Shown here in pieces: positions 33,706-41,283 of a DNA stretch of 64,000 nucleotides. The DNA is from Ruminococcus sp. YE71. Its GTDB lineage: Bacteria; Bacillota; Clostridia; Oscillospirales; Ruminococcaceae. The notes under the pieces are model-generated. The model was not told where the DNA came from, made no database searches, and worked only from the letters and a program-made list of their open reading frames with translations. Numbering within the stretch: the first letter of the stretch is position 1; every line of letters starts with the position of its first letter. A program made the translations under genes and the position numbers. Location: NCBI RefSeq assembly GCF_900119155.1, contig NZ_FPIR01000016.1, positions 1 to 64,000 of the forward strand, given 5' to 3'.

Positions 33706-36576
33706 TTACGGGATAAGACGGTTGATGTCTCTCGGGAACATACTGGTCTCACGGATGTTGTTTCTGCCGAGGAGCTTCATGAGAAGTCTCTCAAGGCCGA
33801 TTCCGAGACCGCCATGGGGCGGCAGACCGTACTTGTGAGCGTCGAGGTAGCTCTCGAAGTCGGCGGGGTCAAGACCCTGTGCGAGCATCTTGTCTACCTG
33901 CTCCTGGTAGTCGTTGATCCTCTGACCGCCTGAGGTTATCTCAAGACCTCTGAACAGCAGGTCGAACTTGTATGCTTCCTTGGGATCCTCGCGGCTGTTC
34001 ATAGCGTAGAACGGCGGCTTAGAGGACGGGAAATGGGTAACGAAGATGAAGTCGCTGTTGTACTTCTCCTTAGCGTACTTGCCGAGGTTCACCTCGTCCT
34101 CGGGGTCGAGGTCGAACTTCTTGCCGCCTGCGGCATTGTCACCGCGGAGCAGTGTCAGCGCGTCGATGAACTTGATCGAGGGTATCTCGGTGATATTCGG
34201 AACGTCCACTTCGAGGAGTGTCAGCTCGTACTTGTAGTTCTCCTTCAGGTACTCCATGATGTGGCGGAGCATCGCGGTCTCCATCGCCATTACGTCGTAC
34301 ATGGAGTCGATGTAACCCATCTCGAAGTCAAGACCTATGTACTCGTTGATGTGACGGCTGGTAGCGTGCTTCTCCGCACGGTAAACAGGCGCGATCTCAT
34401 AAACGCGGTCGAACACGCCGACGCAGGCCTGCTTGTAGAACTGCGGCGACTGGTTCAGGAACGCATTCTTGTGGAAGTAGTCGAGGCGGAAGATGTTCGC
34501 GCCGCCCTCAGCGCCCTGAGCAACGATCTTCGGGGTGTGTATCTCGGTGAAGCCGTTTGCTCTCATGAACTCGTGCATACCGTGAACAAGACCCTCCTGG
34601 AGCTTGAAGATAGCTCTCTCGTAGGGGTTGCGGAGTGCCGCCACGCGGTTGTCGAGCTTGGTGTCGATGGAGCAGTTGAGCTTGCCCTGAGAAATTTTCA
34701 GCGGCAGGTCGGCTGCGGGAGTGCTGATGAGACGGATGTCCGAAAGCACGATCTCAACGCCGTTGAAGTCCTTCGGGTTCTCCTGAACTGTACCCTTCAC
34801 CCATACGAAGTCGCCCTCTTTGAGACCCTGGATGCTGTCCTTGCAGGCTTCGCTGTGAACGGTCTGGATGGTGCAGTTTGCTGTTCTTACAACAACGAAT
34901 GCAACACCCGCCATCTTTCTGAGTCTGTGAACGCAGGCCTTGAACTCAACGGTCTTGCCTACATTGTTCAGCGCGTCGGAAAGAGCGAATTCCTTGATGA
35001 GCTTGTCGGTGCCGACCATCACCATGTAGTCGCCGTCCTTGGACGGAACATACTTGTCGGGATTTGTATACTTAGTGAGCTTGGAGAGGTCTCTGCCCTG
35101 CTCTTCCTCAGCAGTCTCGACCTCAACAGCCGCGCCTGCCGAAGCCGCTTCGAGCTTCTGCTCCAGCACTTCCTTGATTATCTTCGGAGTAGCCACGCCC
35201 TTGAGCGACTTGGTACACTGACCCATGATGAAGCCGAATACCTTCTTCTCGCCGCTTGCGTACTGCTGTACCTGCGAAGCGTTCTCGGTGAGGATGCTGT
35301 CGATAACGCTTGCCACCTTATCCATATCAACGGAGATGATATAGCCTGCGTCCTTAGCGATCTTCTCGGGGTCGCCGCCGTTTTCAGCCATTACGCGGAA
35401 TACGGCCTTAGCGTCGTTCTTCGAGATCTTCTCCTCGTCTGCGAGCTTGACTACGGTCGCCAGCTCTTCGGGAGTGAACTTGATGTTGTCGAGGTCTATC
35501 TCGCCGAGATTGATACGTCTCATGAACTCGGTGAGGATGAATGCCGATACCGACTTCGGAGCGTTGTAGGTCTTGAGCGCTTCCTCGAAGAAATCGGAGA
35601 TGGGCTTGTTGTTTACAAGTGTCTGAGCGTCTACCTTCGAGAGCTTGTATTCGCCAGTGTAGCGTGCAAGGCGGACGTTCGGCATCTCGGGGAGCTTCGC
35701 CTTGATAGCGGCGAGCTGTTCGTCGGTGAGGTTCACCTGTAAGATGTCGGGCTCGGGGAAGTAGCGGTAGTCGTGAGCGTTTTCCTTGGTACGCATCGAC
35801 TTGGTAGCGTCGCGGTTAGCGTCATAGCGGCGGGTCTCCTGAACGACCTTCTTGCCTGCTTCGAGAAGAAGTGCCTGTCTGCGCTCCTCGTACTTGATAG
35901 CGCGTCCCACCGACTTGATGGAGTTGATGTTCTTGATCTCGGCACGAGTACCGAACTCCTTGTCGCCCGGCTTCATGATGGAGATATTTACGTCGCATCT
36001 GAGGGAGCCCTGCTCCATCTTACAGTCGCATACGCCTGCGTACTGAAGGAGAAGCGAGATCTGCTCAACGTAAGCCATAGCCTCCTCGGCGGAGCGCATA
36101 TCAGGCTCGGAAACGATCTCGATCAGCGGGATGCCGCAGCGGTTGTAGTCTGCGAGAGATACGCCGTTGTAGTCGTCATGAACGAGCTTGCCTGCGTCCT
36201 CTTCGAGGTGGACGTGGTTGATGCGGATGTCCTTCTTCTTGCCGTTTACCTCTATCGGGATAGCGCCCGCACCGATGATCGGGTAGTAGAGCTGGGATAT
36301 CTGGTAGGCCTTCGGAAGGTCGGGGTAGAAGTAGTTCTTGCGGTCGAATACCGAGAACTTGTTTATCTCACAGCCGAAAGCGTAGCCTGCCTTTACCGCA
36401 TATTCAACGGCGGTCTGGTTGATGACGGGCAGAGTACCGGGCATACCCGTGCAGACGGGGCAGCAGCGGCTGTTGCGCTCTCCGCCGAACTCAGCGGAGC
36501 AATTGCAGAATATCTTGGTCTTGGTAAGAAGCTCGGCGTGTATCTCAAGACCAATGACAGTAATATACTTTTCCAT
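33706..36576 (-). CDS. gatB-aspS: GatB fused to non-discriminating-type aspartyl-tRNA synthetase
   Basis: A single 956-residue frame. Residues 1-475 are a full GatB (GLEIHAELLTKTKIFC, zinc-site CNC...CCPVC, HVHLEEDAGKLVHD, tail domain to KIIKEVLEQKL). An Ala/Glu-rich linker spans about 476-515. Residues ~516-956 are an archaeal-type AspRS: OB fold, class II motif 2 with VYEIAPVYRAEKHATSRHINEY (723-745) and motif 3 GIGLERLLMKL (about 925-935). His550 (VHRLRK) and Pro601 (ENPKDF) seem to match the His/Pro pair of non-discriminating AspRS. Such an enzyme charges tRNA-Asn with Asp, which GatCAB then amidates. The fusion would be a built-in transamidosome. Downstream of gatA by 14 bp. Confidence 0.92.
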   Translation of the reverse strand: MEKYITVIGLEIHAELLTKTKIFCNCSAEFGGERNSRCCPVCTGMPGTLPVINQTAVEYAVKAGYAFGCEINKFSVFDRKNYFYPDLPKAYQISQLYYPIIGAGAIPIEVNGKKKDIRINHVHLEEDAGKLVHDDYNGVSLADYNRCGIPLIEIVSEPDMRSAEEAMAYVEQISLLLQYAGVCDCKMEQGSLRCDVNISIMKPGDKEFGTRAEIKNINSIKSVGRAIKYEERRQALLLEAGKKVVQETRRYDANRDATKSMRTKENAHDYRYFPEPDILQVNLTDEQLAAIKAKLPEMPNVRLARYTGEYKLSKVDAQTLVNNKPISDFFEEALKTYNAPKSVSAFILTEFMRRINLGEIDLDNIKFTPEELATVVKLADEEKISKNDAKAVFRVMAENGGDPEKIAKDAGYIISVDMDKVASVIDSILTENASQVQQYASGEKKVFGFIMGQCTKSLKGVATPKIIKEVLEQKLEAASAGAAVEVETAEEEQGRDLSKLTKYTNPDKYVPSKDGDYMVMVGTDKLIKEFALSDALNNVGKTVEFKACVHRLRKMAGVAFVVVRTANCTIQTVHSEACKDSIQGLKEGDFVWVKGTVQENPKDFNGVEIVLSDIRLISTPAADLPLKISQGKLNCSIDTKLDNRVAALRNPYERAIFKLQEGLVHGMHEFMRANGFTEIHTPKIVAQGAEGGANIFRLDYFHKNAFLNQSPQFYKQACVGVFDRVYEIAPVYRAEKHATSRHINEYIGLDFEMGYIDSMYDVMAMETAMLRHIMEYLKENYKYELTLLEVDVPNITEIPSIKFIDALTLLRGDNAAGGKKFDLDPEDEVNLGKYAKEKYNSDFIFVTHFPSSKPPFYAMNSREDPKEAYKFDLLFRGLEITSGGQRINDYQEQVDKMLAQGLDPADFESYLDAHKYGLPPHGGLGIGLERLLMKLLGRNNIRETSMFPRDINRLIP

Positions 36577-36590
36577 TTGTCTTTTCCTCC

Positions 36591-38045
36591 TTAGTCAAGC
36601 TTCGGTGATACGGGCTTAAAGGTCTGCTCGAAAGCGTCGGCGAGCTGGATGACGGTCTGCTCGTCGAAGCGTCTGCCGACGATCGAAAGTCCGATGGGCA
36701 TACCCTTGTCGCTGTAGCCGCAGGGCGTGGATATTGCAGGGAGACCCGCGATATTCACGGTAACGGTGCAGATGTCAGCCTGATACATCTTTACAGGGTC
36801 GGATACCTGCTCCTCGGGGCGGTAAGCAACTGCGGGAGTTGTGGGCGTGATGATCGCGTCGCACTTCTCGAAGATGCCGTCATACTCGGCGCGGATGACC
36901 TGTCTCAGAGCCATAGCCTTGCCGTAGTAAGCGTCATAGTAACCGCTCGAAAGTGCGTAGTTGCCGAGGAGTATGCGGCGCTTTACCTCGTCGCCGAAGC
37001 CCTCGGAACGGGACTTCTTGATAAGCTCTTCGTAGCTGTCCGCCTCAGCGGTGCGGTGACCGTACTTGATGCCGTCGTATCTCGACAGGTTGGAAGCCGC
37101 CTCGGCAGAGCTGATGAGGTAGTAAGCAGGAACAGCGTACTTGAGGGACGGCATGGAGCAGTCCACAAGCTCGGCGCCGAGGGACTTGTAAGTCTCGGCA
37201 GCTGCGAGCACGCTCTTTCTGATCTCGTCGTCGATGCCCTCACCGAAGAACTCCTTCGGCAGAGCGAGCTTCATGCCCGTAAGGGGCTTGCCGATCTTCG
37301 CCGCGAAGTCGGGCACGCTCTCGCGGGAGCTTGTGCCGTCGTGGGGGTCGAAGCCGCAGATGCAGTCGAGTATCTTAGCGCAGTCGTAAGCCGAGTGCGC
37401 GATAGGTCCGATCTGGTCGAAGGAACTTGCGAAAGCCACAAGACCGAAACGGGAAACTCTGCTGTAGGTAGGCTTGATGCCCGTAACGCCGCAGAATGCC
37501 GCAGGCTGTCTGATAGATCCGCCCGTATCCGAACCGAGGGATGCGGTGCAGAGCTCAGCTGCAACAGCCGCCGCCGAACCGCCCGACGAACCGCCGGGAA
37601 CGCAGTCGGTGTTGTAGGGGTTGCGGGTCTTTGCGAAAGCCGAGGTCTGGGTCGAGCCGCCCATCGCGAACTCGTCCATGCTCGCCTTTCCGAGCATAAC
37701 GATGCCCTGTGCGTTCAGGCGCTCCATAACGGTAGCATTGTACTGGGGCACGAAGTCCTCAAGTATCTTTGAAGCGCAGGTGGTGCGGACGCCCTCTGTG
37801 CAGATGTTGTCCTTGATAGCCATCGGGATACCAGTCAGAGCCTTTGCCTCGCCCGCGTCGATGAGCTTCTGAGCCGCGTCAGCCTGTGCGAGAGCGCCCT
37901 CTTCGGTAACGGTTATATAGGACTTTATCTTTCCGTCACGCGCTTTGATATTTGCGATGTACTCCTGTGCAAGCTCTTTCGCGCTGATCTTCTTAGCGTC
38001 GAGAGCCTCACGCTGAGCACGGATAGTCTTTAATGAACTGTCCAA
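36591..38045 (-). CDS. gatA: Asp/Glu-tRNA amidotransferase subunit A
   Basis: 484 residues of the amidase-signature family. The catalytic Lys is in GIPMAIKDNIC, and the cis-Ser and Ser nucleophile are in the glycine/serine-rich GGSSGGSAAAVAAELCTASLGSDTGGSIRQPAAFCG. It releases ammonia from glutamine or asparagine and passes it to GatB. Order gatC, gatA, gatB with 14-24 bp gaps marks one operon. Confidence 0.94.
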   Translation of the reverse strand: MDSSLKTIRAQREALDAKKISAKELAQEYIANIKARDGKIKSYITVTEEGALAQADAAQKLIDAGEAKALTGIPMAIKDNICTEGVRTTCASKILEDFVPQYNATVMERLNAQGIVMLGKASMDEFAMGGSTQTSAFAKTRNPYNTDCVPGGSSGGSAAAVAAELCTASLGSDTGGSIRQPAAFCGVTGIKPTYSRVSRFGLVAFASSFDQIGPIAHSAYDCAKILDCICGFDPHDGTSSRESVPDFAAKIGKPLTGMKLALPKEFFGEGIDDEIRKSVLAAAETYKSLGAELVDCSMPSLKYAVPAYYLISSAEAASNLSRYDGIKYGHRTAEADSYEELIKKSRSEGFGDEVKRRILLGNYALSSGYYDAYYGKAMALRQVIRAEYDGIFEKCDAIITPTTPAVAYRPEEQVSDPVKMYQADICTVTVNIAGLPAISTPCGYSDKGMPIGLSIVGRRFDEQTVIQLADAFEQTFKPVSPKLD

Positions 38046-38069: not shown

Positions 38070-38348
38070 TTATTCTACTACCTTCGGTACGACGAATGCG
38101 TTGTCGCGGTTGACAGCATTCGCGAGGACCTTCTCGGTCGGCATGGAATCGTGTTTCTCGTCGGCACGCAGGCTCTCGAGGAAAACGTTGTGATTATCCT
38201 TATGAGCGTCGTACTCAACGTCGTAGCCCTTGACGCCGTCCATAAGCTCGATGATGTCGGTCATCTCGGCGGCAGTCTTTTCGAGCTGCTCGTCGGTAAA
38301 TTCGAGCTTGCCAAGCTCGGCAAGGTATTTTACCATATTAAGATCCAT
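38070..38348 (-). CDS. gatC: Asp/Glu-tRNA amidotransferase subunit C
   Basis: 92 residues from ATG 38348 (MDLNMVKYLAELGKLEFTDEQ), with AAAGGAAG about eight bases upstream. A longer frame upstream lacks a ribosome site. GatC wraps around GatA/GatB and stabilises the complex. The C-terminal LRADEKHDSMPTEKVLANA with the PTEKVLANA-like motif is typical. First gene of the gat operon. Confidence 0.9.
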   Translation of the reverse strand: MDLNMVKYLAELGKLEFTDEQLEKTAAEMTDIIELMDGVKGYDVEYDAHKDNHNVFLESLRADEKHDSMPTEKVLANAVNRDNAFVVPKVVE

Positions 38349-38371
38349 AAATCTTCTTCCTTTCTGTCGAA

Positions 38372-38388
38372 ATGGCGCACTGCGCCAT
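38372..38388. promoter_or_regulatory. Perfect 17-bp palindrome in the gat leader
   Basis: ATGGCGCACTGCGCCAT is symmetric around its centre and lies a few bases after the expected transcription start. It could be a repressor operator, or a 6-bp hairpin at the 5' end of the mRNA. Confidence 0.5.
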
Positions 38389-38399
38389 ACTAACATCTA

Positions 38400-40016: not shown

Positions 40017-40220
40017 ATGGACATCCAGAAGGGCGATACGCTCGTTATGAAGAAAAAACACCCCTGCGGCTCGAACGAGATGCTCGTCCTCAGAACGGGC
40101 ATGGACCTGAAACTGCGCTGCGTCGGCTGCGGCAGAGAATTCATGATACCCCGCTCTAAGGGCGAAAAAAATATCAAAAGCATAAACAAAGACGGAAACG
40201 GAGGCACTGATGGACGCTAA
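40017..40220 (+). CDS. DUF951 small zinc-ribbon protein
   Basis: 67 residues from ATG 40017. The family core is clear: [21 protein letters not shown], then [25 protein letters not shown]. Cysteines of HPCG and CVGC probably bind one metal. DUF951 proteins are common in Firmicutes and have no settled role; here it overlaps prfA by 11 bases, tying it to translation. The ribosome site is weak. Confidence 0.85.
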
Positions 40221-41283
40221 ATTTGAAGCGGTCGCCGTTCGGTTCGAGGAGATAGGCGAGTTGCTGACTCAGCCCGACACGGTAAACGACAGCAGCAGAT
40301 ACGCCGAGCTGATGAAGGAATATTCGCGTCTCGGACCCATCGCCGCCAAGATAAAAGAATATGAAAAGGCAGAGACCGAAAACACCGAGGCGAGGGAAAT
40401 GCTCGCAGAGGGCGGTCTTGACGCCGAGATGAAGGAAATGGTCAGCGAACAGCTCACCGAAAGCGCCGATGCTCTTGAAAGGCTCGGCGAGGAACTGAAA
40501 ATAATGCTGCTCCCCCGCGACCCCAACGACGACAAGAACGTTATCGTCGAGATACGCGGCGGCGCGGGCGGCGAGGAGAGCGCACTTTTCGCACACTCGC
40601 TCTACAGGATGTATCAGCTCTACTCCGCCTCAAAGGGCTGGAAGACCGAGCTCATCCACATAAACGAGACCGAGCTGGGCGGCTGCAAGGAAGTCACTTT
40701 CTCGGTGGAGGGTCAGGGCGCTTACTCCCGTCTCAAGTACGAGAGCGGCGTTCACCGCGTTCAGCGCGTGCCCGAGACCGAGTCGCAGGGACGCATCCAC
40801 ACCTCGACAGTGACGGTGGCGGTACTTCCCGAAGCCGAAGAGGTGGAGCTCGAACTCAACGAAGCTACCGAACTGAAAATAGACGTTTTCCGCGCTTCGG
40901 GCGCAGGCGGTCAGCATATCAACAAGACCGAGTCGGCTGTCCGCATCACACATCTCCCCACGGGTCTCGTGGTGGAATGTCAGGACGAGCGCAGCCAGTA
41001 CAAGAACAAGGACAAGGCTATGCGCGTTCTCCGCTCGCGGCTGCTGGAAATGCAGCGCGAGGCTCACGACAGCGAGATAGCCTCACAGCGCCGCTCGATG
41101 GTCGGCACAGGCGACCGCTCCGAGAGGATACGCACCTACAACTTCCCCGAGAGCCGTATCTCCGACCACCGCATCGGTCTGACGATATACAAACTCGACA
41201 GCTTCCTGAACGGTCAGCTCGATGAGGTGATAGACGCCCTCGCGCTCGCCGACCGCACAGCACAGCTCACGGAAAACAATTGA
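40210..41283 (+). CDS. prfA: Peptide chain release factor 1
   Basis: 357 residues. The peptidyl-tRNA hydrolysis motif GGQ is in [20 protein letters not shown]; the codon-reading loop has the P-x-T form ([14 protein letters not shown]) of RF1, which reads UAA and UAG. Length is usual. It overlaps DUF951 upstream, and sua5 begins 18 bp downstream, an arrangement seen in many Firmicutes. Confidence 0.95.

Follow-up and report, generated by a model that had tools for sequence, protein, structure and literature searches.

The window, i.e., the whole analyzed stretch of 64,000 nucleotides from contig NZ_FPIR01000016.1 of Ruminococcus sp. YE71, harbors a gat operon in which gatB and an aspartyl-tRNA synthetase (AspRS) gene share one reading frame. 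This frame comprises 956 codons on the minus strand, with its ATG at 36576 and its stop codon at 33706-33708; the plus strand across 33706-36576 is broken by stops, and the first-pass annotation of this interval had named no strand. The following features were assigned:

33706 to 36576, minus strand: gatB-aspS fusion gene, 956 amino acids, stop codon included (frame, NCBIfam and Pfam matches, 57 distinct sequences)
35149 to 36576, minus strand: GatB half, residues 1-476 (NCBIfam, Pfam, alignment and structural match)
35092 to 35148, minus strand: Ala/Glu-rich unconserved tether, residues 477-495 (pN/pS 0.74; pLDDT mostly below 50)
35044 to 35091, minus strand: conserved linker motif DxSKLTxYxNxDKYxP, residues 496-511 (in fused proteins only; folds with the AspRS in models)
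33709 to 35016, minus strand: archaeal-type AspRS half, residues ~521-956 (start placed by the start of separate homologues)
34726 to 34944, minus strand: OB-fold anticodon-binding domain, residues 545-617 (Pfam)
34927 to 34929, minus strand: His550, equivalent of Thermococcus kodakarensis Trp26, relaxed-type (alignment)
34765 to 34767, minus strand: Phe604, equivalent of T. kodakarensis Lys85, not Pro (alignment)
36591 to 38045, minus strand: gatA (TIGR00132, 611.7 bits, cut-off 481.1)
38070 to 38396, minus strand: gatC (Pfam GatC over cut-off; TIGR00135 slightly below cut-off)

Within the fusion protein, the Pfam domains GatB_N (residues 6-288) and GatB_Yqey (328-475) were detected in the GatB half, and the AspRS half comprises an OB anticodon domain (545-617) followed by a class II core (638-950). 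The NCBIfam model for GatB (TIGR00133) was matched with 544.7 bits at a cut-off of 314.8. Moreover, the two halves align over their entire lengths with solved GatB and solved AspRS2 proteins, respectively, and the structural matches of the GatB half include 3ip4_B and 3h0l_B (Z 35-37). The open frame and the Pfam and NCBIfam assignments thus confirm that a complete GatB, a linker and a complete archaeal-type AspRS are encoded as one protein, as had been proposed from the 956-residue frame. Purifying selection is strong on each half (pN/pS 0.12-0.13; these values are descriptive, since synonymous sites are near saturation). Profile matches also bear out the gene order gatC-gatA-gatB-aspS, with gatA and gatC directly upstream on the same strand. 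The deduced GatA aligns with solved GatA, and homologues suggest that gatC truly starts at about codon 17, near 38348. Elsewhere in the window, ARAGORN called a tRNA-Leu at 40699-40779 on the plus strand, within a prfA-like frame (40210-41283); this call is probably false, as it is missing from the tRNAs listed when the genome was searched with Rfam.

The same fusion was sought in related genomes, as the first-pass annotation had proposed. Among 148 family genomes scanned, 14 carried the full-length GatB-AspRS fusion, the source genome included, and a scan of named genomes returned 53 fused loci. After deduplication, the 53 named loci and 13 further family genomes yielded 57 distinct fused sequences, which were compared with 32 unfused gatB-aspS2 loci. 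Since the same junction occurs in 57 distinct sequences, among them one from a complete chromosome, an assembly or sequencing error at this point was ruled out. The carriers represent a group of gut Ruminococcus with isolate genomes among them, including Ruminococcus bicirculans 80/3 (complete chromosome), R. callidus ATCC 27760 and Ruminococcus sp. Marseille-P6503. An upstream gatC is kept among the fused loci, and gatA and gatC precede the fusion in nearly all of those with sufficient contig flank.

Relatives have gatB and aspS2 as distinct genes, mostly next to each other. In a quick tree calculated from joined GatB and AspRS sequences, the fused rows fall almost entirely into one group within this unfused grade. 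On it, three changes between the fused and unfused states were counted versus 24 with shuffled labels; two unfused metagenome genes (L034 and L038) were placed within the fused group, though with middling support only. One clade of all fused sequences was not rejected (AU p 0.447), and the fusion likely arose once. An order-wide scan of 394 genomes gave no GatB-AspRS fusion outside the fused Ruminococcus clade. One candidate flagged in that scan (G197, 940 amino acids) was rejected, as a stop separates its genes, and GatB 'frames' of 1088-1098 amino acids in G132 and G117 were likewise dismissed, gatB and a bacterial-type aspS being parted by a stop. The latter two loci (L047 and L048) feature a gat operon of the window type with a bacterial-type rather than an archaeal-type AspRS gene directly after gatB. 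Furthermore, four unfused relatives (L124, L126, L127 and L128) possess a small reading frame between gatB and aspS2, and in some unfused relatives the product of this frame ends rich in Cys and acidic residues.

The linker had previously been described as Ala/Glu-rich. This description holds for residues 477-495 and misses the conserved motif at residues 496-511, which is spelled roughly D-T-S-K-L-T-x-Y-x-N-x-D-K-Y-x-P and shows a pN/pS of 0.28. Among 53 sequences, Thr501 is conserved in 47, Tyr503 in 47 (Phe in four), Asn505 in 45, Tyr509 in 45 (Phe in seven) and Pro511 in 52. The strict form of the motif was found in 40 of 57 fused proteins but not once among the 32 separate GatB or AspRS proteins, and separate AspRS proteins begin just past its position. 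That the motif is common to the fusions would likewise favor a single origin. In the full-chain structure model (mean pLDDT 80.4, pTM 0.51), residues 501-530 reached pLDDT values of 84-87 and the tether remained below 50. When GatB was omitted, the motif region was modelled at a pLDDT of about 90 (pTM 0.82), with disorder limited to the first 17 residues. Because it is modelled equally well in the absence of GatB, the motif is predicted to be part of the AspRS fold and to pack on the AspRS, and a role as a dock for GatB is not favored. The free tether would accordingly be short, in the range of 17 residues. In a structural alignment, the motif occupies the site of the residues preceding the OB domain in eukaryotic AspRS (yeast from residue 75, human from residue 29), a likeness in predicted structural position.

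A disordered and unconserved tether is also what a cleavage site might look like, and the working proteins could be separate, either through cleavage of the finished chain or through additional translation of the AspRS half from an internal start. For the latter, the copy of the source genome offers a single internal ATG preceded by a fair ribosome-binding signal (-7.8 kcal/mol), which lies inside the null range. Over all fused genes, the best signal in the linker averaged -3.5 kcal/mol versus -4.6 kcal/mol for random windows, and separate aspS genes and gatB starts reached -6.8 and -10.3 kcal/mol, respectively. At the former aspS start, no internal ribosome-binding site exceeding random windows of the same genes was found. 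Internal initiation is hence unsupported, its signals being at random level and far below what separate aspS genes show. Separate working proteins are considered very unlikely, and we infer that the chain stays uncleaved in the cell.

The AspRS half was assigned to the archaeal non-discriminating class, in agreement with the first-pass annotation, by exceeding the cut-offs of PRK05159 (522.6 bits versus 353) and TIGR00458 aspS_nondisc (387.8 versus 368.4), both of which are NCBIfam models for aspartate--tRNA(Asn) ligase. It remained below the cut-offs for asnS (TIGR00457; 227 versus 342.6 bits) and aspS_bact (169 versus 373.85 bits). Furthermore, it aligns end to end with the 422-residue AspRS2 of Thermus thermophilus and lacks the bacterial GAD insertion and C-terminal extension, Pfam giving the OB domain and class II core only. 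Its closest structure is 3kfu_C, the AspRS of the T. thermophilus transamidosome (Z 36-37). The positions of T. kodakarensis Trp26 and Lys85 are taken here as the tRNA specificity sites of archaeal AspRS. Of the two residues previously linked to relaxed tRNA recognition, His550 was upheld by alignment: it occupies the position of Trp26 and of T. thermophilus His23, and 61 of the 67 fused rows have His there. The assignment of Pro601 was rejected, as this residue pairs with T. kodakarensis Pro82; the position equivalent to Lys85, and to Pro72 of T. thermophilus AspRS2, is Phe604. This site varies within the clade (Phe, Tyr, Ile, Val and others), with Pro in four of 67 fused rows; Pro at this position is not among the curated criteria of TIGR00458 and PRK05159. 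One of two relaxed-type residues is thus present, and neither of the discriminating ones (Trp, Lys). Taken together, these sequence features suggest a relaxed tRNA specificity of the AspRS half.

The source genome is 99.96% complete and was screened family by family with profile searches. As predicted from the fusion, a second, bacterial-type AspRS is encoded on another contig (C34; 714 bits). At the position of Pseudomonas aeruginosa His31, which we assume to be a relaxed-specificity residue position, this enzyme carries Val, and it has a gap in common with T. thermophilus AspRS1; both features would fit a discriminating enzyme. The reverse assignment, in which the C34 enzyme makes Asp-tRNA-Asn and the fused AspRS half is tRNA-Asp-specific or inactive, can draw on Phe604 in place of Pro at one specificity position. 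However, the relaxed-type His550, the absence of both the discriminating Trp and Lys, the score over the non-discriminating family cut-off and the strong purifying selection argue against it, as do the Val and the T. thermophilus AspRS1-like gap of the C34 enzyme, leaving this assignment with hardly any probability.

Checks for asnS and asnA/asnB had been suggested earlier. Profile searches of the source genome gave no match over the cut-off for AsnRS, nor for GlnRS, and detected the asparagine synthase AsnB with 513 bits (cut-off 267). The only GatB of this genome is the fused one. Since AsnRS and GlnRS are absent, both Asn-tRNA and Gln-tRNA need GatCAB, and with a single GatB and no GlnRS the fused GatB should also serve Gln-tRNA. 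From this pathway logic, the fused protein is inferred to serve both, which extends the asparagine-only role originally assigned to it, where the tRNA-Gln function was missed. As read by eye, tRNA-Asn and both tRNA-Gln start with a U1-A72 pair and tRNA-Asp with G1-C72. The U1-A72 pair is the identity pair of the amidotransferase and admits amidation, while G1-C72 excludes it (PMC9976931). An AspRS of putatively relaxed class, GatA, GatB, GatC and a tRNA-Asn with U1-A72 are thus all encoded in the source genome.

Within the family, AsnRS was found in one of 14 genomes with the fusion, in 12 of 18 with a separate AspRS2 and in 86 of the 116 that lack AspRS2. For its scarcity in fused genomes, Fisher tests gave p 0.0009 and 1.5e-6, uncorrected for shared ancestry. 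GlnRS occurred in none of the 14 fused genomes, and the bacterial AspRS in 13, the exception being a genome of 75% completeness. A second GatB, approximately 45% identical, is encoded in six of the 14. The sole sampled fused genome with an AsnRS gene (G111, locus L025; AsnRS at G111:C16:1862-3223) also has a second GatB, and the fusion may be dispensable there. Overall, genome content and tRNA pairs fit a role of the fusion in Asn-tRNA formation.

Based on these results, the fusion is regarded as a probable natural joining of two Asn-transamidosome parts in one chain, resulting in a permanent amidation complex. The AspRS half would charge tRNA-Asn with aspartate, and the tethered GatCAB would convert the Asp-tRNA-Asn before its release by direct hand-over. 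Class IIb AspRS are homodimers, so two GatCABs would reside on one AspRS dimer, and such an assembly would therefore be permanent and would not need tRNA to hold it together. A higher local concentration of the amidotransferase and less escape of mischarged tRNA would be expected. In turn, tRNA-Asp would be charged by the bacterial AspRS encoded elsewhere in the genome, and Glu-tRNA-Gln would be converted by the same fused GatB as the only one available. What counts against the permanent complex is that Phe604, rather than Pro, fills the Lys85 position and that the fused genome G111 has an AsnRS.

The closest known system is the Asn transamidosome of T. thermophilus (ND-AspRS2, GatCAB and tRNA-Asn; PDB 3KFU), which combines the same protein activities and likewise uses an AspRS of the archaeal type, but as separate proteins and not with GatB and AspRS in one chain. 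Its assembly depends on tRNA, and in known systems an archaeal-type AspRS without GAD domain needs tRNA for contact with GatCAB (PMC9499178), a need that the tether would remove. T. thermophilus also has AsnRS and GlnRS (PMC4206432), whereas neither was detected in the source genome. In the P. aeruginosa Asn transamidosome (PDB 4WJ3), AspRS likewise works with GatCAB on tRNA-Asn; in contrast to the fusion, it is a bacterial AspRS with GAD insertion, and the proteins are separate. The Helicobacter pylori transamidosome with Hp0100 forms without tRNA (PMC8406222), which the fusion would share; there an extra protein mediates assembly, whereas here the bridge would be a peptide linker. In Mycobacterium smegmatis, a lost stop codon joins two gat products in a gatC-gatA fusion, a selected mutant with more mistranslation (PMC7541841). 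This mutant joins two amidotransferase subunits and, unlike the GatB-AspRS fusion, is not a conserved natural gene.

Another covalent AspRS-Gat fusion is the bifunctional AspRS/GatC (NCBIfam NF009460, PRK12820), which combines a bacterial AspRS with GatC instead of an archaeal-type AspRS with GatB; the protein studied here scored 78.5 bits against this model (cut-off 1379), and gatC is a separate gene in the window. The AspRS/GatC layout occurs in relatives: at least eight of those without AspRS2 encode a bacterial AspRS that ends in a C-terminal GatC part, and gatA and gatB come next. Nine were examined and their C-termini read as GatC (loci L131-L139, e.g., L139:3646-5733, minus strand, and L132:586-2802, plus strand). 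In three checked by model, the GatC part scored 77-92 bits (cut-off 47.1), and these relatives' proteins reached 625-668 bits with NF009460, under its cut-off of 1379. Considering both arrangements, AspRS has therefore been joined to GatCAB at least twice, via different subunits, and the occurrence of two distinct AspRS-Gat fusions within a single family of bacteria suggests repeated selection for linkage.

According to a rival explanation, the fusion only fixes a 1:1 ratio and joint expression, with both halves using freely diffusing tRNA and no hand-over. Joining was a small step, gatB and aspS2 being already adjacent in unfused relatives, and the poor conservation of the tether is in line with this account. 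However, a shared operon already put a 1:1 ratio within easy reach, and the conserved motif exclusive to fusions, the scarcity of AsnRS in fused genomes and the second, independent AspRS-GatC fusion all suggest that linkage itself was selected; a mere ratio effect is hence deemed unlikely. Returning to the permanent complex, a more specific version is put forward tentatively, as a possibility of somewhat less than even likelihood: a particle independent of tRNA would produce Asn-tRNA by internal hand-over and Gln-tRNA with free GluRS, the linker motif would set its geometry, and the AspRS-GatC fusion of relatives would have arisen independently.

A literature search, mostly outside subscription journals, returned no paper describing a GatB-AspRS fusion. 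The components and the pathway are already known, and automatic annotation may already name the fusion. What appears to be new is that the enzyme mischarging tRNA-Asn with aspartate and part of the correcting enzyme, previously known mainly from loose complexes of separate proteins, are present in one chain. Direct hand-over as a safeguard of translation is difficult to examine in the known complexes, which are dynamic and in most cases need tRNA to assemble; a natural fusion locks its partners in a one-to-one ratio and allows comparison with a cut version. In mycobacteria, stabilization of GatCAB and the transamidosome resulted in less mistranslation (PMC8406222), and fused Ruminococcus would therefore represent a ready test of whether permanent linkage cuts Asn-to-Asp errors.
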